Of a DNA stretch of 64,000 nucleotides, positions 20,571-43,043 are shown piece by piece; within the stretch, counting starts at the first letter, position 1, and each line of letters opens with the position of its first letter. Both the position numbers and the translations under genes were made by a program. Below the pieces are notes generated by a model. The model was given only the letters and a program-made list of their open reading frames with translations. It did no database searches and was not told the origin of the DNA. The DNA is from Siniperca chuatsi (lineage: Eukaryota; Chordata; Actinopteri; Centrarchiformes; Sinipercidae), in assembly GCF_020085105.1 (NCBI RefSeq), contig NC_058045.1, positions 11,169,833-11,233,832 on the forward strand, written 5' to 3'.

Positions 20571-22007
20571 TCCATGGAAATTCCTTGTGAAGAATTACAC
20601 AATAGGGATCTTCTTCCAAGGCTTGAAGGTGTCTTGACTGTAATAATAACAAGAATTATAACAGCAAAACAAAAGATAAATGGCTATTTTGACACCACCC
20701 TCAAGTGGGCAAGGAAAGTCTTCCAAAAAACCTTTAAGTGAGTTAAAGTTGGAAGTTTCCTTGGGAAGAATTACAGAAGAGGGACCTTCTTCCAAGGCTT
20801 GCAGGTGTCTTGACAGTAATAATAACAACAAGAATTATAACAACAAAACAAAGAATAAATGCCTATTTTGACACCACCCTCCAGTGGGCAAGAAAGATCT
20901 TCCAAAAACACTTTGAGTGAGTAAAAATTGGAAGTCTCCTTGGGAAGAATTACACAAGAGGGACCTTCTTCGAAGGCTTGAAGGTGTCTTCACAGTCAAA
21001 TTTACAGAAATGATGACAGCAAAACAAGAAAAAATGGCTATTTTGACACATCCCACCAGTCAGCATGGGCAAATTTGGAAGTTTCCTTGGGAAGAATTAC
21101 ACAAGAGGAACCTTTTTCCAAGGCTTGCAGGTGTCTTGACAGTAATAATAACAAGAACTATAACAGCAAAACAAAGAATAAATGCGTATTTTGACACCAC
21201 CCTCCAGTGGGCAAGGTACAACGTCCAAAAACCCTTTGAGTCAGGCAAACCTGGAAGTCTCCTTGGGAAGAATTACACAAGAGGGACCTTCTTCCAAGGC
21301 TTGCAGGTGTCTTCACCGTCAAATTTACAGAGATTAAAATGGCAAAAAAATAAATAAAAGGCTATTTTGACACCACCCACCAGTCAGCATGGGCAAACTT
21401 GGAAGTTTCCTTGTGAAGAATTACACAAGAGGGGCGTTCTTCCAAGGCTTGCAGGTGTCTTGACAGTAAAAAGGAAAAGAAATTATAACAGCAAAACAAG
21501 AAATAAATGACTATTTTGACACCACCCTCCAGTGGGCAAGGTACAACGTCCAAAAAACCTTTGAGTCAGGCAAACTTGGACATTTTGTTGGAAAGAATTG
21601 TACAAAAAGGACATTCTTCAAAGGCTTGCAGGTGTCTTCACAGTCAAATTTACAAAAATTATAACATCAAAATAAGAAATGAATGGCTATTTTGACACCA
21701 CCCTTCAGTTGGCAAGGGCAAACTTGTAAGTTTCCTTGGGAAGAATTGCACAAGAGGGGCCTTCTTCCAAGGCTTGCGGGTGTCTTGACAGTAAAATTAA
21801 CAGAAATTATAACAGCAAAACAAAAAATAAATGCATATTTTGACACCACCCTCAAGTGGGCAAGAAAGATCTTCCAAAAACACTTTGAGTGAGTTAAAGT
21901 TGGAAGTTTCCTTGGGAAGAATTCCACAAGAGGGACCGTCTTCCAAGGCTTGAAGGTGTCTTCACAGTCAAATTTACAGAAATTATAACAGCAAAACAAG
22001 AAATAAA

Positions 22008-22638
22008 TGGCTATTTTGACACCACTCTCTAGTCGGAAAAGGGCAAATTTGAAAGTTTACTTGAGAAGAATTACACAAAAGGGACCTTCTTCCAAGGCTT
22101 GCAGGTGTCATGAGAGGTATAATAACATGAATTATGATAGCAAAAGAAGAAATAAATGCATATTTTGACACCACCCTCAAGTGGGTAAGGAAAATTTTCC
22201 AAAAATCATTTGGTTGGAGCTGGAGCAACACACTCAGGAGACTGGAAACACACAGAACCAGGAGCTGGAGTGACCCACACGGGAGACTGGAGAAAACACG
22301 GGACCAGGAGCTGGAGCAACACACTCAGGAGACTGGAAACACACAGAACCAGGAGCTGGAGTGACCCACACGGGAGACTGGAGAAGACAGGAGCCGGGGT
22401 AGAAGTACCGGATACGAATAGGTAAGTCCGTGGCGTAGAGGATACAGGAGAAAAGCGTTCTGTCTAAATCCTAACGAGACCGGACCCTGACTGTGGTGAG
22501 GAGCTGGGTTTTATAGGTGAGTGGAGTGCTAATTGATTGCAGGTGTGTACGAGGTGACAGGTGCTTGGAATTAGTACTCAGGTGAGGGAGTGCAGAGTGA
22601 AGGGGAGTGGCTGGAGAGCACATGACAGACTGTGACAG
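22008..22638 (+). repeat. Segmental duplication within the array, copy A
   Basis: Begins with a satellite monomer (TATTTTGACACCACTCTCTA), runs through the 46-bp minisatellite and a unique spacer (GTAGAAGTACCGGATACGAA), and ends near GAGCACATGACAGACTGTG. Copy B at 23364-23900 is almost identical base by base but has 92 bp less minisatellite. After copy A the sequence continues into a C-run and the GC-rich block; after copy B it returns to satellite. Confidence 0.85.
22216..22389 (+). repeat. 46-bp minisatellite (about four units)
   Basis: Alternating half-units GGAGCTGGAGCAACACACTC... and GGAGCTGGAGTGACCCACAC..., each about 46 bp and both including GGAGACTGGA, make a 92-bp dimer present twice here and once at about 23573-23655. 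As 46 is not a multiple of 3, the reading frame rotates, so this is not a repeat protein. Confidence 0.8.
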
Positions 22639-23007
22639 TACCCCCCCCCTCCATGGCCAGCTCCCGAGGGCTGAAAGACCCCCCCTTCCCCTGACACTGC
22701 GGCTTGTCCCTAGGGGCCAAGCCGATCCGGGGAGCTTATCGGGGTCCGGTGTGTCGGGCGGCCGATCGGGAGCCTGGACACGGGTTGAGCCGGAGACGCG
22801 GGCGGTCGACCTGGAGCTTGGGCCGGGCTGGAGACCGGAGCGGACTCTGGCGGACGACCAGGAGACGGCGGGAGACCGGAGAGGAGGCTGGCGACTCCGG
22901 CGGTCGGACCTCCGGGCTGGGAGCCGGAGCGGAGCCTGGGGATTCGGGCGGCTGGCGGACCTCCGGGCTGCGAGCCGGAGCGGAGCCTGGGGATTCGGGC
23001 GACAGGC
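22639..23007 (+). other. GC-rich insert with internal direct repeats
   Basis: Starts with TACCCCCCCCTCCATGGCCA and is strongly GC-rich, unlike everything around it. The phrase AGCCGGAGCGGAGCCTGGGG recurs (about 22921 and 22974) together with CGGACCTCCGGGCTG. It is open in several frames on both strands (for example 22607-23077 +), as expected for repetitive GC-rich DNA with few stop codons. A C-run preceded by GTGACAGTA is often seen in fish repeat families. I do not recognise a protein in it. Confidence 0.6.
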
Positions 23008-23363
23008 TTGCAGGTGTCTTCATCGTCAAATTTACAGAGATTATAATGGCAAAACAAGAAATAAAAGGCTATTTTGACACCACCCACCAGTCAGCACGGG
23101 CAAACTTGGAAGTTTCCTTGTGAGGAATTACACAAGAGGGACCTTCTTTTATGGCTTGAGGGTGTCATTCATGATTAAAATTAACGGAACTTATATCAGG
23201 AAAAAAAAAAAACAAACAAAAAACAAGTGGGCAAAGAAAGTCTCCCAAAAAACCGTTGGAAGTTCACTTGGGAAGAATTACAAAAAAAGGGACCTTCTTC
23301 CAAGGCTTGAAGGTGTCTTCACAGTCAATTTTACAGAAATTATAACAGCAAAACAAGAAATAA

Positions 23364-23900
23364 ATGGCTATTTTGACACCACTCTCTAGTCGGAAAAGGG
23401 CAAATTTGAAAGTTTACTTGAGAAGAATTACACAAAAGGGACCTTCTTCCAAGGCTTGCAGGTGTCATGAGAGGTATAATAACATGAATTATGATAGCAA
23501 AAGAAGAAATAAATGCATATTTTGACACCACCCTCAAGTGGGTAAGGAAAATTTTCCAAAAATCATTTGGTTGGAGCTGGAGCAACACACTCAGGAGACT
23601 GGAAACACACAGAACCAGGAGCTGGAGTGACCCACACGGGAGACTGGAGAAGACAGGAGCCGGGGTAGAAGTACCGGATACGAATAGGTAAGTCCGTGGT
23701 GTAGAGGATACAGGAGAAAAGCGTTCTGCCTAAATCCTAACGAGACCGGACCCTGACTGTGGTGAGGAGCTGGGTTTTATAGGTGAGTGGAGTGCTAATT
23801 GATTGCAGGTGTGTACGAGGTGACAGGTGCTTGGCATTAGTACTCAGGTGAGGAAGTGCAGAGTGAAGGGGAGTGGCTGGAGAGCACATGACAGACTGTG
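23364..23900 (+). repeat. Segmental duplication within the array, copy B
   Basis: Near-identical partner of copy A, with a single 92-bp minisatellite dimer. It ends at ACATGACAGACTGTGG and then rejoins the satellite (CACTTCCAAGGCTT). The few mismatches seen by eye (GGCGTAGAG/GGTGTAGAG, CTTGGAATT/CTTGGCATT, GTCTAAA/GCCTAAA) point to a recent duplication. Confidence 0.85.
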
Positions 23901-25155
23901 GCACTTCCAAGGCTTTAGGGCATCTTCACATTGAAATTTACAGAAATTATAATAGCAAAACAATAAATATATGTCTATTTTGACACCACCCTCTAGTTGG
24001 CAAGGGCAAACCTGGAAGTTTACATGGGAAGAATTACACAAGAGGGACCTTCTTCCAAGGCTTGAGGGTGTCTTGACAGTCAAACTTACAGAAATTATAA
24101 CAGCAAAACAAGAAATAAATGGCTATTTTGACACCACCCTCTAGTCGGAAAAGGACAAATTTGGAAGTTTCCTTGGGAAGAATTACACAAGAGGGACCTT
24201 CTTCCAAGGCTTGCAGGTGTCTTGACAGTAATAATCACAAGAACTATAACAGCAAAACAAAAGAATAAATGCATATTTTGACACCACCCTCAAGTGGGCA
24301 AGGAAATTCTTTCAAAAAACCTTTAAGTGAGTTAAATTTGAAGTTTCCTTGGGAAGAATTACACAAGAGGGACCTTCTTCCAATGCTTGAGGGTGTCTTG
24401 ACAGTAAAATTTACAGAAATTACAAAAGCAAAACAAAAAATTAATGTATATTTTGACACCACCCTCAAGTGAGCAAGGTACAACTTCCAATAACCTTTTG
24501 AGTTGGGCAAACTAGGAATTTTCCTTGGGAAGAATTAAACAAGAGGGACCTTCGTCCAAGGTTTGAGGGTGTCTTTACAGTTACAGTAAAAGAAATTATA
24601 ACAGCAAAACAAAAATTAAATGCACATCTTGACACCACCCTCAAGTGGGCAAGGAAAGTCTTCCAAAAAACCTTTAAGTGAGTTAAAGTTGGAAGTTCCC
24701 TTGAGAAGAATTACACAAGAGGGACCTTCTTCCAAGGCTTGCAGGTGTCATGAGATGTATAATAACATGAATTATGATAGCAAAAGAAGAAATAAATGAC
24801 TATTTTTACACCACCCTCCAGTGGGCAAGGAAAATCTTCCAAAAATCCTTTAAGTGAGTTAAATTTGGAAGTTTACTTGGGAAGAATTACACCAAAGGGA
24901 CCTTCTTTCAAGGCTTGAAGGTGTCTTCAAAGTGAAATTTGTAGTAATTATAACAGCAAAACAAAAAATATATGTCTGTGTTGACACCACCCTCTAGTCG
25001 GCAAAGGGCAAACTTGGAAGTTTCCTTGGGAAGAATTACAGAAGAGGGACTTTCTTCCAAGGCTTGCAGGTGAGTCGGCATTAAATATAACGAAAAAATT
25101 TTATAAATGCCACTTTTGACACCACCCTCTAGTGGGAAAGGATTATTTTTCAAAA

Positions 25156-35149: not shown

Positions 35150-38100
35150 ATGTTTAACAAGTCGTATCAGCTGCTCCCTCAGAGGGACTCCACCAGTCCG
35201 AGGACTCCTGGCTTGTTTGTGGACACTGATGGCCTTAAACAGCTCGGCTACCACAAAGGACTTTCATTTGACAACATGCCCAATGTTTCTGAAAACGACT
35301 TCACTGGTAGGTAGCTAACATTACATAACATTACATTGATAACGGGGGCTTATAAACAAACCTGCCTCAAATAATCTAATAAAATAACAAGGGCATTTCT
35401 CTTTAATTTATTTCTCGTCTGTCTGAATATTAGTGGTTAACCATTTATGATCAACACTAGATGTTGTCAATGGTATTATTACTGCCTAGTCCATCATGTT
35501 TTTTGTTTCAACGTCTTTGTTATCCCCAAGGGAAATTTATCTTGCAGCCAGGTGGTGAAACATAATACACATGCACAGACTTTGAACATAAAACATAATA
35601 AAATGCATAACAGTTAAAACATATAATAAAAATATGTATAACATGCCAAAACCCACCACTCTACATTGCACTGCATTTAATAAAAGTTGGAGGACTTGCA
35701 TGAGACAGATTAAAACAAAACAGCATGGTCAAAATTACAGAGGATGAGATATCCTGAAATTTAGTTCAGTTCAGTTAATTCTCCAAGCCCAAATCGAGAT
35801 TACTCAACTGATGCCACTTGAGTCATTTTCTCAGACTTTAGAAAGCTCCCCTTAAAGCCACAGACAACATCATACAACTGTTTTTACAGGCCGAGTAGTT
35901 CTCCCTATGACTGGTGTACTGAAAATACCCTTAAAGACTGAGACTCTTTTTTTGTTTGTTTCTTTTCTTTAAGATACCTCCCAAGGATGGGTGTCCTGGA
36001 TTTGCAACCTGATTGTCATCTTCCTTGTCTACATCTGCACCTTTATAACTTTTCCCATAACAGGATGGTTTGTACTGAAAGTAAGCTGAAATTATCTCTC
36101 ATCAGTTACTCCCACATCATGTGCATTTACTTGTTGAGAATAAAAACAACCAACTAACTTTTTTTTCCCGTAGACGGTGCCTAACTACCAAAGGATAGTA
36201 GTGTTTCGTCTGGGTCGAGTTTCTCCTCCAAAGGGCCCTGGTATTGTCCTTGTGCTGCCCCTCATTGACCAGTGGCAGAGAGTGGACCTGCGCACCCATG
36301 CTTTCAACATCCCTCCTTGCCAGGTAAACCACTATACTCCGTTCACCATTAGTTAGCTATTGGGATGGACAACTTGTTCAAGTCCTGAAACAATGAAAAA
36401 TGCAGAGAACAACTCTGGTCTGGAGTAGTTTCCCTCACATTCTCCTACAGGTTTTTTACATAAAGTCTTTGCTGAACTTTTACTAAAAAGACTGTAACTT
36501 TGGAAGATACTTGTTTTGGTTAACTCAGGCTGCTGAAGCTTCATATTAGCTTCAGATAAACTAAGATAAACTGAATATACTGTTGCACGGATGGAGGACT
36601 CTGGAGTTTGTCCTCCATCACTTCCACTATTCGCATGAGGAAGGGATCTTTTAGTGGCCAGTATGAACAGGAGGAATGATTACATCTGTTTCAATGTTCA
36701 TATGGGCAGTAGACTTGTGAACCTATCCTTTAAGTTATGTTCCTGAACATGAAACAGCTTTACTGAAAAATAGTTATTGCTTAAGATGCTTAGAGTTTTG
36801 CAATATTAAAATATATTCTCTCAATATAGCAAAGGATAGTGGGCTTATTTTCATGATCTCTTTGGTGATGTCTCTTGGTCTCTGGCTGCATTTGAAATCT
36901 AAAGTCGCGGACTTCACCATCTAAGTCTTCTAAGCACAGAGGCAAGCAGTGTCTTATGTCACCATGTAAAATTTTGAACCTGTGATTCTTACACTAAGGA
37001 ATCGTAGTTTCTCTTCAACCATGCTGAGTTAAATGAAGTCTGTAAGTTGTGTGCAATTTTCTTTGTCCTGCAGGTGGCACTCTTGGTGCACTGTTGATCA
37101 GTGTGTAACTGGATAAAGTAAATAGATACAGGGAGAACTCTGAATAGTGTGTGGCAGCACATGTGTTGATACATAAAGTTGTAATGTCATGCTGCCTGCA
37201 ATATATTTGTCAGCTCATTTCACTTGTTTCTTAATGGTGCCAAGACTGTCATTATGAGCTTTTGCCAACTGTATATTCAGCCTTACACAGTGAATATTGC
37301 TTAGTCAATACCAGCTTTAAGAATGAAGAGGAGATGTCTCTAAATTATTAAAGGACCATTGTTAGATCCAGCACTCATATAAAATGTAATTCTGCTACTG
37401 TAGGTGAATACTCGGGATGGCGGTGTGTTGTCAGTGGGAGCAGACATCCAGTTCAGGATCTGGAACCCCGTCATGTCAGTAATATCAGTCCAGGATCTGA
37501 ACGCCTCAACCAGGATGACGGCACAGAATGCTTTGACCCACAGCCTGGACAAGAAGACTGTCAGGGAGATCCAAACTGAGAGAGTTAAACTGGGAGAATA
37601 TCTCGGGGTGAGACTACACTGGAGCTGCTCTCTGCAGGCTTTTCACTGTATCAAGTCTTACTTACATCATTTCTTGCTCTGTACAGATGGACATAAATGA
37701 GTTGACTCGGCACTGGGGGCTGGAGGTGGACAGGGTAGAGCTTACCCTTGGCTCTCTACTAAAAGCACCAGTTGAAGGCACCTCTGGACCCCTAATCATG
37801 CCTCCCTCTGTGCCTGGACTGGAAGGCCTCACTGGCTCCATTCAACAGTTGGCCATGCACTTTCTGGGCCACAGTGGTAGTTCACAGCCTCAACAAGGTA
37901 TGGCACCACACACACACAATTCTTTTTGTACAAAATGTACCCATTATGATAATGTGTAATACATCTGTGGCTTTTACTCCTCAGAGGACAGCATAACTTT
38001 TACAGATGAGCTCAGCAGTGCCCCTCAGGCAGTCATGGCCACACCGGGTTCTGTTGAAGAGCTGCTTGGCGGGATCAAGCTCCTGCTCTCTGAAACTTTG

Positions 38101-38569
38101 GTCTACCAGATTGGGGCCTGCTTCCAGTTTGACATAAGCTCAGAAGATGGACAACATCACAGTTACTATGTGGATCTGAGCCAAGGTGATAGTTCATATA
38201 TTGCTGTAAATATGCCACAATTATAAGAGCATTTCCATTTAGATAAATCCAGCAACTGAATGCAAGTTGTGTTAAATCTGTCTAATAATGCTCAAATGTT
38301 TGTGGTAAATAGAAACAAAAGTACAGTTATGTAAATATCAAATATCTCCATCACTCTGTGTGTGTTCTGTAGGTAGCGGTGCAGCTGGAGCAGGGTCCTT
38401 GTGCAGACAGCCAGATGTGACATTGAATATGAGTGACAGCGACCTACTGGCCATGTTCCAGGGAGGGCTACGGCCATTTGCAGCTTACACTAGTGGCAGA
38501 CTTAAAATCCAGGGAGACATTAAGACTGCCATGAAGCTGGAAGAACTCATAAAGCTACTTAAGAAATAG
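35150..38569 (+). CDS. stoml1: Stomatin-like protein 1
   Basis: Seven exons, phase-consistent: 35150-35306, 35974-36080, 36174-36323, 37404-37607, 37687-37897, 37985-38185, 38373-38569; 408 aa (human 398). Membrane-associated late-endosomal protein that binds cholesterol and modulates acid-sensing channels in mammals. Visible: a short cytosolic N-terminus with a tyrosine-type sorting-like motif (SYQLLPQRD), a hydrophobic hairpin (WICNLIVIFLVYICTFITFP, about residues 61-80), the SPFH/stomatin domain (IVVFRLGRVSPPKGPGIVLV, LSVGADIQFRIWNPVMSV, NALTHSLDKKTVREIQ, HWGLEVDRVELTL), and a C-terminal SCP2-like lipid-binding domain (VYQIGACFQFDIS, LLAMFQGGLRPFAAYTSGRL, KIQGDIKTAMKLEELIKLL). The stop TAG (38567-38569) lies inside the target-site duplication of an L1 insertion, so the gene's 3' UTR now begins with L1 sequence. 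Confidence 0.95.
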
Positions 38570-38574
38570 TGATC

Positions 38575-39636
38575 ATAAGTACTCCCCATTTGAGCCTTTA
38601 TTGCTCAAGGACAATCTGAACAAACACATACCACAAATACACAATTTACTTTCTGAATATTCTGAAGCCAATACAATAGCACTAAAAGAGAAATGGGAAA
38701 AGGATCGCAAGATCCAGATCACAGATGAACACTGGAGCGAGATTAATGAGCAATCACAGAGAATTTGAATTAATACCAGGTATAAGCTCTGCAATTACAA
38801 ATTTATTCTCAGAGCATATCTTACGCCTGAGAGACTGAACCGTTTTAAAACCGATTCATCCCCTCTCTGCCCTTGCAGCAAGCCAGAGACTGGTACGTTC
38901 GTACATATGGTATGGTCTTGTTTCAAGCTTAGACAGTGGAGACGCTGGAGATTGAGAATATTCTTGAAAAAGTTTTATTGAGGGAAATATCTTTATCTCC
39001 TGTGATTACAGTGTTGTTGGGCGACTTGACCGATCTAAATCTTCCCTCCCAAAGGATAAAGGTTTTTTTTTTTTTTTTTTTAGACTAGCTATTACGGCTG
39101 CCAAAAGTGCATCACATCTAAGTGGAATCATTTTTTTATTTAATTGAATTACTGTGTCAAACTGAAAGTCTTTTTAATTTACCAGGTGGTTTTTAAAATG
39201 TGAAATGTTATTTTGTTTTTATGTCTCTACATAATAAATGACAAAGGAAAGTAAGGATCCCCCTAATATTACTCAGTTGATTAATGAGTTAAATGAATGT
39301 GCTCCTTTGGAGAAAATAACCTATACCTTGAGATCTAGCTATCTTCCATAGGACTTGGGATCTGTGGATGACTTACAGGGAGCCTATTTAATTTACTAAC
39401 TATTTTATTATTTTTATTTTTATTTCTGTATCTTTACTTTGTGGGGTGGGAGGGATGCTGGATGACCTGTCTCTGTGTGGAAGTGAGAAGTGGTGTGTAT
39501 TGTGGAAGAATAATTCCTTCAGGTCCAATTCTGTGGCTGGTTCAGATGAGTTTTATTCACTGCGCAGTGGAGACAGAAGTTCACAACATGAATGTGAATA
39601 TGGAAAATGAATAAACAGAATTCCCCCCCAAAAAAC
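38575..39636 (+). mobile_element. 5'-truncated L1-clade LINE inserted at the stoml1 stop codon
   Basis: The 3' end of a fish L1-like ORF2 is recognisable through stops and indels: EKDRKIQITDEHWSEINEQS-like sequence (about 38690-38760), YKLCNYKFILRAYLTPERLN (about 38780-38840), the Cys/His region PLCPCSKPETGTFVHMVWSC (about 38865-38925), then LAITAAKSASHL. A 22-nt T run interrupts it near 39063. It ends with an A-rich tail (CCCCCAAAAAACAAG). The flanks are a target-site duplication: AAGAAATAGTGATC (38561-38574) and AAGAAATAGCGATC (39637-39650), one mismatch in 14. The element shares the gene's orientation. Confidence 0.8.
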
Positions 39637-39650
39637 AAGAAATAGCGATC

Positions 39651-40121
39651 GATAGTAACATTTGTATATGTAGGCTCTTTATTAAATCCTTCATTTTAAT
39701 TGTAAATATTTTTCATGTATTCACTGATTACATGTGTTATGAACTGATTTCTGTTATGGCCTTGTCTTCACAAATCAAAGCAAATACTTGTTTACAAAGA
39801 CAAAAAACTTTCTGAAGGTCTTTAGGCCTAATTTTACTTGGCATAGTCTTAATAGTTTCTGACACTTTTTTTTACAGAAAGATGACTGAAGGGTGCTTTG
39901 ATACAAGATAAAATATACACTAAGTAACACAGCTTAACATACACAGACAAACTTATGAGGTGTATTTTATTAAGCTCTGAAGTTCAACTGGAGAGCCTTG
40001 ATCAGCACAGCACGAGGGGGTTTGACTATTTAGACCAGCCTCCTTGTTTTGCACCAGATGTCTCTGGGAGAGCCAGAGTAGCTGCTGAAGGTAGAGCAGA
40101 GTGAGCATTTTTGTTATCGGG
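39651..40121. other. stoml1-cyp11a1 intergenic region; displaced stoml1 3' UTR and cyp11a1 promoter
   Basis: After the L1 and the second duplication copy this should resume the original stoml1 3' UTR. The last 150 bp before the cyp11a1 ATG is presumably its promoter and leader. A GCCTTGA motif (39995-40001), read TCAAGGC on the minus strand, resembles a steroidogenic factor 1 (NR5A1) half-site, the usual regulator of this gene; one short match is weak evidence. A TATTTTAT sequence occurs near 39963. Confidence 0.4.
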
Positions 40122-43043
40122 ATGGCCAGGTGGAGTGTGTGGCGCAGCCCTGTGATGCTGCCCCTGTCCTGGATAGAAGAGCTGACAACAACAGGTGTGC
40201 GCTGCAGCAGCAGTATGCCGGTGGTCAGACAGGCATACTCAGAGAGCAGCAGCAGCATTGTCAGGCCTTTCAGTGAAATTCCTGGACTGTGGAAGAATGG
40301 GGTGGGCAACTTGTACAATTTTTGGAAACTGGATGGCTTCAGAAACCTTCACCGCATCATGTTGCAGAACTTCAACACTTTTGGACCCATTTACAGGTAC
40401 GGGAGGCAAGACAGTTTGTATAAATCTTAAATAAAACAATAAAATTACTCTGCAGAACACTAACTCCTGCTTATTTATAGTAAATAACATACGTAGACAA
40501 AACAAATGGCTTTGAATTTACGTCACTACTTTGAAACTACTTTCTGGTGTAAATATAAACATTTTTGTTCATGAAAAATATCTGACTGACAATCCACAAG
40601 GTCATGTTTTCTAAAAACAAGAAGCTGATATTGCATTTTTACCCCCTTTTTCCTCTGACTTTCTGTATGTTAGAGAAAAAATAGGTTATTATGAAAGTGT
40701 AAATATCATCAATCCTGAAGATGCTGCTATCCTGTTCAAAGCGGAGGGCCATTATCCTAAAAGGCTGAAAGTTGAAGCCTGGACATCATACAGAGACTAC
40801 AGGAATCGCAAATATGGAGTTTTACTAAAGTATGTGTTATTATTATCCCCTTCTACCTGTATAAATTCAGTTTTACCAATATTTTTTACACTTTGAATGA
40901 ACCAAGGGTTTTATTGAGTGCTATAAGACAAAGAAATAAACTTGCTAGTTTAAGTTTCCATCCAATCTTCCCACAGAAATGGAGAAGACTGGAGATCAAA
41001 CCGTGTGATTCTCAACAAGGAGGTGATTTCCCCAAAGGTGCTGGAAAACTTTGTACCTTTGCTGGATGAAGTCGGCGAGGATTTTGTGGCCAGAGTTCAC
41101 AAAAAGATAAAGCGAAGTGGCCAGAACAAATGGACCACTGACCTTTCTCAAGAACTCTTTAAATATGCACTAGAGTGTAAGACTGACTTTTATTTCTCTT
41201 GATTCTCAAGTATAATTTATTTCACTCACTGTGTAGGCCAGTGCCATTTTTTTCTTACATATTGCTTGCTGAGCTCTTTGTCTCATGTTTACTCTGTCCG
41301 ACACAGCGGTGAGCTCAGTGCTGTATGGGGAGCGTCTGGGTTTGATGCTGGACTACATTGACCCTGAAGCTCAACATTTCATTGACTGCATCACCCTCAT
41401 GTTCAAGACTACCTCACCCATGCTGTACATACCTCCTAGTCTGTTGAAACAGATTGGAGCGAAGGTGTGGCGGGACCATGTGGAGGCTTGGGATGGGATC
41501 TTCAATCAAGGTAAGACTCAGAGCACAACCAGAAAGAACATTTTAAGTTTTGTTTTGATTGGCTTTGATTGGTATCATGAGGTTGTCAGTTCTGTTATTT
41601 GAAAATGACATTTTCTATTCCTATGTTTGTACTGTATATGGTGCTGTTTCTTATTTCATTTATGTTCTTTTGGTGCATCAGCGGACCGCTGCATCCATAA
41701 CATCTACAGGCAGTTACGTCAGGAGACTGGCACTCCAAAGAAATACCCAGGAGTCCTGGCTAGCCTGCTCATGCTGGACAAATTGTCCATTGAAGACATC
41801 AAGGCCAGCATCACTGAGCTAATGGCTGGAGGAGTAGATACTGTATGTAAAAAAATGACAAAAATCATTTATTTTCCTGAATGTTACCTCATTTTGGCTT
41901 TTTAATTCTGTTTCTGTGTTTCAGACTTCTATAACGCTGCTGTGGACATTGTATGAACTAGCTAGGCACCCCAACCTCCAGGAGGAGCTGAGGGCGGAGG
42001 TGAATGCAGCTCGGGCTGAAAGCCAGGGAGACATGCTGGAGATGCTGAAGCGGATTCCATTGGTCAAAGGAGCTTTGAAGGAAACACTGAGGTGGAAAAA
42101 AATGTCATACAGTAGACTATAGGTGCATCAACTCCTAAATAGTTTTAATTTTCTTCCGACCCATTCTACAAAATGCACTTTGTACTGTGTGAAATATGAT
42201 AGCCACATCTGCCATTTATTAGCCTCTCGTTTCTGTCATCAGAAATGCAAATTCCATAATTGTTGAAAATAGTTTGCCTCTTTCAGATTTGTAGTAATAC
42301 TTTTTCCACTAACACATACAGTAGTTGTTCTGAAAATGACTGTTTGTAATTTTCCCATTTCTGCCATCTACTAGCACTAAGTTAGTCTTTAATATAGAAT
42401 TTTCACTTTGATCCCTCAGGTTACACCCAGTTGCAGTGAGCTTGCAAAGATACATAGCAGAAGATATCATTATTCAAAACTACCACATCCCAGCTGGGGT
42501 AAGTTAAAAAATATAAATCATCTAATCAACTTTTTGTATTTGAACATTGTTATACAAACTGAGGAAGTGGTAGACAGTTTAGCACCGTGTTGGGTCACTG
42601 CTCACCTTTTTTGTTTTTCTGTGTTTGTGTTTAGACTCTGGTCCAGTTAGGACTGTATGCAATGGGCAGAGACCCCAAAGTGTTTTTTCGTCCGGAGCAG
42701 TATCAGCCCTCGCGCTGGCTGAGGACAGAGACGCACTACTTCAGGAGCCTGGGCTTCGGCTTTGGCCCCCGTCAGTGTTTAGGACGCAGAATAGCTGATG
42801 CAGAGATGCAAATCTTCCTTATCCATGTGAGATATTCAGAAAATAAAGAGCAGTTTCACCGTATTCTGTGGCTCATTTACACAGCATATTAACTGCATGC
42901 ATTATATTTTGTCTTTGCAGATGCTTGAGAACTTCAGAGTGGAGAAACAACGCCATGTGGAAGTGCAGAGTACCTTTGAGCTCATTCTACTACCAGAAAC
43001 GCCTATAATATTGACATTGAAGCCTCTACATACTAATCGGTAA
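40122..43043 (+). CDS. cyp11a1: Cholesterol side-chain cleavage enzyme, mitochondrial (P450scc)
   Basis: Nine exons, phase-consistent: 40122-40396, 40674-40829, 40977-41176, 41307-41510, 41682-41842, 41925-42091, 42420-42498, 42635-42826, 42921-43043; 518 aa (human 521). Converts cholesterol to pregnenolone in the inner mitochondrial membrane, the first step of steroid synthesis, with electrons from adrenodoxin. The N-terminus is a basic, uncharged-rich presequence ([17 protein letters not shown]). P450 landmarks: [20 protein letters not shown] at the start of the fold, I-helix [15 protein letters not shown], ExxR motif in [25 protein letters not shown], and heme loop [12 protein letters not shown] with ligand C462. 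The start ATG is the one beginning the basic presequence; an in-frame ATG 21 bp upstream would disrupt it. The next gene converges on it. Confidence 0.96.

Follow-up and report, generated by a model that had tools for sequence, protein, structure and literature searches.

A 5'-truncated L1-type LINE lying directly beyond the stoml1 stop codon in Siniperca chuatsi, with a probable target-site duplication that includes the stop

Insertion of 5'-truncated L1 copies by target-primed reverse transcription is known for human L1 from passages of two published accounts (PMC7617806, PMC2912911). The passages of the first also give TT/AAAA as the consensus for cleavage by the human L1 endonuclease, and describe top-strand staggers of +7, +11 and +19 nt (PMC7617806). 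Transposable elements residing in last exons have likewise been documented, in species that include zebrafish, with new poly(A) signals cited for human in the passages concerned (PMC2911107).

The locus described here resembles the human 5'-truncated insertions, as far as those passages describe them, in having a sense copy that is cut at its 5' end, an A-rich tail, a target-site duplication and a nick site similar to TT/AAAA. It is unlike them in that close copies are few in this genome, the duplication spans a stop codon, and two pieces of other repeats are lodged inside the element. As with the last-exon insertions treated in the passages of PMC2911107, a longer 3' UTR and perhaps a poly(A) signal belonging to the element would be expected; unlike those cases, the element at stoml1 starts only 5 bases past the stop. 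We consider it highly probable that an L1-type LINE was inserted by target-primed reverse transcription at the very end of stoml1 in a manner that preserved the protein, and we infer that the 3' end of the stoml1 mRNA was moved as a result. The window, meaning the whole stretch of 64,000 nucleotides that was analysed, corresponds to C4:11169833-11233832, and the assembly searched comprises 718.8 Mb in 65 contigs.

The L1-type element and its relatives

The element (38575..39636, + strand) is a 5'-truncated LINE of L1 type that lies in the same sense as stoml1. It consists of the C-terminal region of ORF2 in a degraded frame, a 3' UTR and a short A-rich tail, and it displays what we take to be the features of an L1 CTD. 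One stop is present within the stretch compared at the protein level, and the match to zf-RVT is weak (E 0.0015), being under the Pfam curated cut-off. In a relative elsewhere in the assembly (L018) this C-terminal region is preceded by RVT_1 (E 1.3e-27), and the zf-RVT match of that relative (E 0.00012) is also under the cut-off. Because the RT core and endonuclease are missing from the copy in the window, it is, as judged from its coding content, a truncated copy of a longer L1-type element. The term 'L1-type' refers to similarity in ORF2 and at the 3' end of a copy without the RT core, and as a label it would span the L1 clade proper, Tx1 or other sister groups.

The search of the assembly yielded just two long copies of high similarity. 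The first, at C16:5090871-5091272 (L002), has 89% identity with homology beginning at 38577, while the second, at C3:22153012-22153233 (L003), has 87% identity with homology beginning at 38582. At the protein level 135 places in the genome gave matches with E <= 0.001, the element itself included, among 150 that were scored out of 346 candidates; beyond the first three of these places identities were 20-47%. When a 108-aa query from the C16 copy was used in blastp, 2 of the 13 alignments with E < 1e-6 extended into the part that is absent from the window element (L021 from residue 4 and L032 from residue 6), and a peptide further upstream of the C16 copy matched both L032 (E 8.4e-5) and L018 (E 1.1e-4). 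With tblastx at E <= 1e-3, the DNA upstream of the C16 and C3 copies matched its own loci only, and nothing was recognised upstream of the point where the match of the C3 copy starts.

The three longest copies begin within a few bases of each other, at 38575-38577 for the window copy, 38577 for the C16 copy and 38582 for the C3 copy (the last two being 2 and 7 bp from the start of the element), a coincidence that counts against the preferred reading. Such near-identical starts would suggest that the element is a short one in its own right and no truncated L1. We think this less likely because the C16 copy shows similarity to L1 ORF2 upstream of the shared portion, though the tblastx result leaves it some probability. 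At the other end, the sequence GTGAATATGGAAAATGAATAAAC is common to the window element, the C3 copy and a further copy on C9 (L060). The 3' end of the C16 copy differs and is without AATAAA.

Two foreign pieces interrupt the element. One (39129..39254, + strand, edges approximate) belongs to a different dispersed repeat with a single match each on C7 and C5 at 86-90% identity, and the surroundings of those two matches, as printed, are unlike the insert at stoml1. The other (39498..39588, + strand) is 91 bp long and comes from a further dispersed repeat that may be LTR-like, with matches at 18 other genomic places at 84-96% identity, none of which reaches the L1 3' end. Ten of these 18 places were inspected; in eight the repeat extends beyond the segment with the same or similar sequence, and the L1 end was found at none of the ten. 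In this region the C3 copy of the L1 has 82 bp of other sequence, taken to be L1 3' UTR, where the window copy has 92 bp. Both pieces are unrelated to L1 and look like events peculiar to this one copy, probably later ones, with template switching as the other option.

The end of stoml1 and its poly(A) signals

The stoml1 coding sequence (35150..38569, + strand) specifies 408 aa followed by TAG in a GT-AG model of 7 exons with an intact frame (35150-35306, 35974-36080, 36174-36323, 37404-37607, 37687-37897, 37985-38185 and 38373-38569). Its product was matched by sequence to stomatin and SCP2 chains and contains Pfam Band_7 (E 1.3e-20) and SCP2 (E 3.9e-20) domains. The last exon ends in CTT AAG AAA TAG, the final AAG AAA TAG occupying 38561-38569, and the in-frame triplets past the stop are TGA, TCA and TAA. 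Since the spliced reading frame is intact and the SCP2 domain extends as far as residue 404 out of 408, stoml1 very likely retains its native, ancestral stop in this TAG (38567-38569). The left target-site duplication AAGAAATAGTGATC (38561..38574, + strand) is made up of the last two stoml1 codons, the stop and 5 further bases, and its right counterpart AAGAAATAGCGATC (39637..39650, + strand) lies directly past the element. An initial annotation of this DNA had placed an L1 insertion right at the stoml1 stop, and this observation is confirmed; the element begins 5 bases past the TAG. Its further statements that the left copy of the duplication retains the frame and the stop, leaving the protein intact, and that a vestigial K-K-stop is found at 39637-39645, within the right copy, also agree with our analysis.

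An extra 1076 bp, counting the insert and one copy of the duplication, now separates the stop from the DNA that formerly followed it. The proposal of the initial annotation that the entire native 3' UTR was pushed about 1.1 kb downstream is less well supported, since the UTR so displaced was probably only about 50-70 nt long. UGUA and ATTAAA are motifs of poly(A) regions, and cleavage takes place 10-30 nt after the poly(A) signal. The native downstream DNA (39651..40121, + strand) likely comprises the native poly(A) region together with the upstream region of the next gene, cyp11a1; it contains TGTA at 39663 and 39669 and ATTAAA at 39681, with T-rich sequence beyond. The estimate of a short native UTR follows from the position of this ATTAAA, which starts only 35 nt past the vestigial stop. 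Such a length would not be odd here, since the first AATAAA is encountered 43 nt past the stop of a neighbouring gene that we take to be nr2e3 and 109 nt past the stop of cyp11a1. What was displaced was thus probably in the main a poly(A) signal and little native UTR. The suggestion that microRNA or stability control had been changed is weakened to the same degree, and a large loss of such control is unlikely because so short a UTR would have had little to lose.

A gain appears to be the likelier effect, in which the 3' UTR would acquire about 1.06 kb of sequence from repeats and end past the AATAAA of the L1. With only 5 bases separating the stop from the element, nearly all of any possible stoml1 3' UTR would be derived from repeats. 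The scan for hexamers identified AATAAA at 39233, within the first embedded repeat, and at 39610, in the L1 end, as well as ATTAAA at 39681 in the native DNA; weaker variants are located at 38636, 38670, 39055, 39907 and 39912. The AATAAA of the L1 3' end (39610..39615, + strand) is a candidate new poly(A) signal for stoml1 and is present in three of the four copy ends compared (window, C9 and C3, but not C16). A run of 19 T at 39063-39081 in the L1-derived part would form a U tract of the 3' UTR. The stoml1 mRNA would run into the L1 and be cleaved mainly after the AATAAA at 39610, the ATTAAA at 39681, or both, so that its 3' UTR would grow from a probable 50-70 nt to about 1.06-1.13 kb, while the protein would be little affected. 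Use of the AATAAA at 39233 could also occur and would shorten the 3' UTR of stoml1.

How the transcript is divided between these signals is the point at which the strongest alternative arises. The polymerase may read through the insert to the native ATTAAA, which would still be the main site, the L1 and its embedded repeats being carried as passive 3' UTR. We regard this as a serious possibility, though somewhat short of an even chance: the native region has kept its two TGTA motifs, its hexamer and its T-rich downstream sequence, but the AATAAA of the L1 is reached first and is the canonical hexamer, as is the one at 39233.

The neighbouring gene cyp11a1

The next gene on the + strand is cyp11a1, the cholesterol side-chain cleavage P450 (40122..43043), for which an open spliced frame was obtained (four splice-site choices are open, of which one was used). 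The product matches p450 (E 4.3e-123), and in the PDB it is closest in sequence to CYP11A1 chains (E 3.3e-241 and 1.4e-166). The ATG of this gene lies 1552 bp from the stoml1 stop and 476 bp from the vestigial stop, so that the insert would have widened the gap between stop and ATG from the second figure to the first. The initial annotation made no mention of cyp11a1.

This change in spacing leads to an alternative within the insertion reading, in which the main consequence falls on the neighbour, the cyp11a1 promoter having been separated from stoml1 with a change in read-through or distal control. We consider this improbable. The tripled distance speaks for it, but the insertion left the 471 bp upstream of cyp11a1 as they were. 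A scan for the NR5A (SF-1) consensus, allowing at most one mismatch over 38375-40300, gave 3 sites against about 1.8 expected at the window rate of 0.92 per kb, numbers that are too few to tell; one of the sites is borne by the L1 itself (8/9 at 38605). A more elaborate proposal is that the tiny native 3' UTR was replaced by a repeat-built one with its own poly(A) signal, and that the tripling of the gap changed stoml1-cyp11a1 read-through and thereby affected how the first enzyme of steroid synthesis is controlled in this lineage. This would be less probable still, if only slightly, and is put forward as conjecture.

In zebrafish cyp11a1 and cyp11a2 are adjacent, and the passages of that account do not mention stoml1 (PMC3012610). 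A literature search, judged by titles and the beginnings of abstracts, returned nothing on the stoml1-cyp11a1 pair, and no paper was found in it that joins a retrotransposon insertion, a stop codon, the cyp11a1 promoter and fish.

The target-site duplication and the proposed insertion

The two copies of the duplication are identical at 13 of 14 positions, the tenth base being T on the left and C on the right. The initial annotation had described a 14-bp duplication that copies the last codons and the stop; repeats are indeed found at both edges of the element, yet they are imperfect, and the mismatch had gone unmentioned. The C of the right copy is in a CG context, and CpG decay in the left copy could account for the difference. 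To judge how readily such repeats arise by chance, pairs of this spacing were placed at random in the window, their edges being allowed to shift somewhat, and 249 of 200,000 (0.12%) reached 13 of 14 or better. When low-complexity 14-mers were excluded and a different random seed was used, 264 of 200,000 did so, while 15 of 3000 had 13 or 14 of 14 in a wider scan that took in flanks of 40 bases. Part of these chance matches may be supplied by the large tandem arrays of the window. The arrays (20581-25004) are built of units of about 149, 176-179 and 325 bp as well as shorter ones, and lie in a stretch with positive GC and AT skew on the + strand.

The short A-rich tail CCCCCCCAAAAAAC is found immediately 5' of the right copy. 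At the left edge the presumed nick, between 38560 and 38561, has the context TT/AAGA (CTT/AAGAAA on the top strand), which agrees at 5 of 6 positions with TT/AAAA, a consensus that is that of human L1. The stagger of 14 is bracketed by those described for the human element. The same arrangement is seen in L060 (C9:20766337-20766366 and its flanks), a very short copy that comprises about 100 bp of this L1 3' end and has an exact 15-bp duplication of its own, GAAAGATAATAGTGT, after TTTT. The C3 copy was also checked for a duplication and none was found.

Taken in sequence, the proposed insertion would have begun with a bottom-strand nick, made by the L1 endonuclease in the final codons of stoml1 and six bases before the stop, with the top strand cut 14 bp downstream. 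Reverse transcription would have halted early, leaving only the 3' end of the element in the sense orientation, now about 1.06 kb long with its foreign pieces. Fill-in of the stagger would then have placed the last two codons, the stop and 5 bases on both sides, the left copy still terminating the protein, and the two other repeat pieces would have become embedded in this L1 copy, probably at a later time. Since the duplication covers the last codons and the stop, the end of the stoml1 protein would survive a nick made inside its coding sequence. From this anatomy an empty site is predicted in which AAGAAATAG(C/T)GATC runs straight on into GATAGTAACATTTG. When the assembly was searched with the downstream flank (39651-40400) for a further copy, such as an empty site would provide, one place only was found. 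Stray DNA containing the stoml1 end was also sought, and pattern-matching stretches numbered 11 in viral contigs and 174 in prokaryote contigs, none of which were confirmed.

The least probable reading, that the direct repeats are due to chance, that the L1 fragment arrived through a segmental copy, recombination or endonuclease-independent repair, and that AAGAAATAG did not therefore adjoin 39651 in the empty site, can draw on the imperfect duplication and the random placements that equal it, on the single copy of the downstream flank and on the near-coincident starts of the close copies, but we regard it as very unlikely given a repeat at both edges of the element, where it adjoins an A-rich tail and a nick site of L1 type, another copy of this 3' end with the same anatomy, and a T/C difference that would fit CpG decay.

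Insertion by target-primed reverse transcription, as preferred here, is a known kind of event and calls for no new mechanism; the duplication that carries the stop is a neat example of it at an unusually tight position. The locus offers a clear natural example of how a target-site duplication may let an endonuclease nick in the coding end of a gene go unpunished. It also provides a simple natural test of whether a poly(A) signal supplied by a LINE takes over in a gene whose native signal lay almost beside the stop, and of what a widened gap may do to the neighbouring steroid gene cyp11a1.
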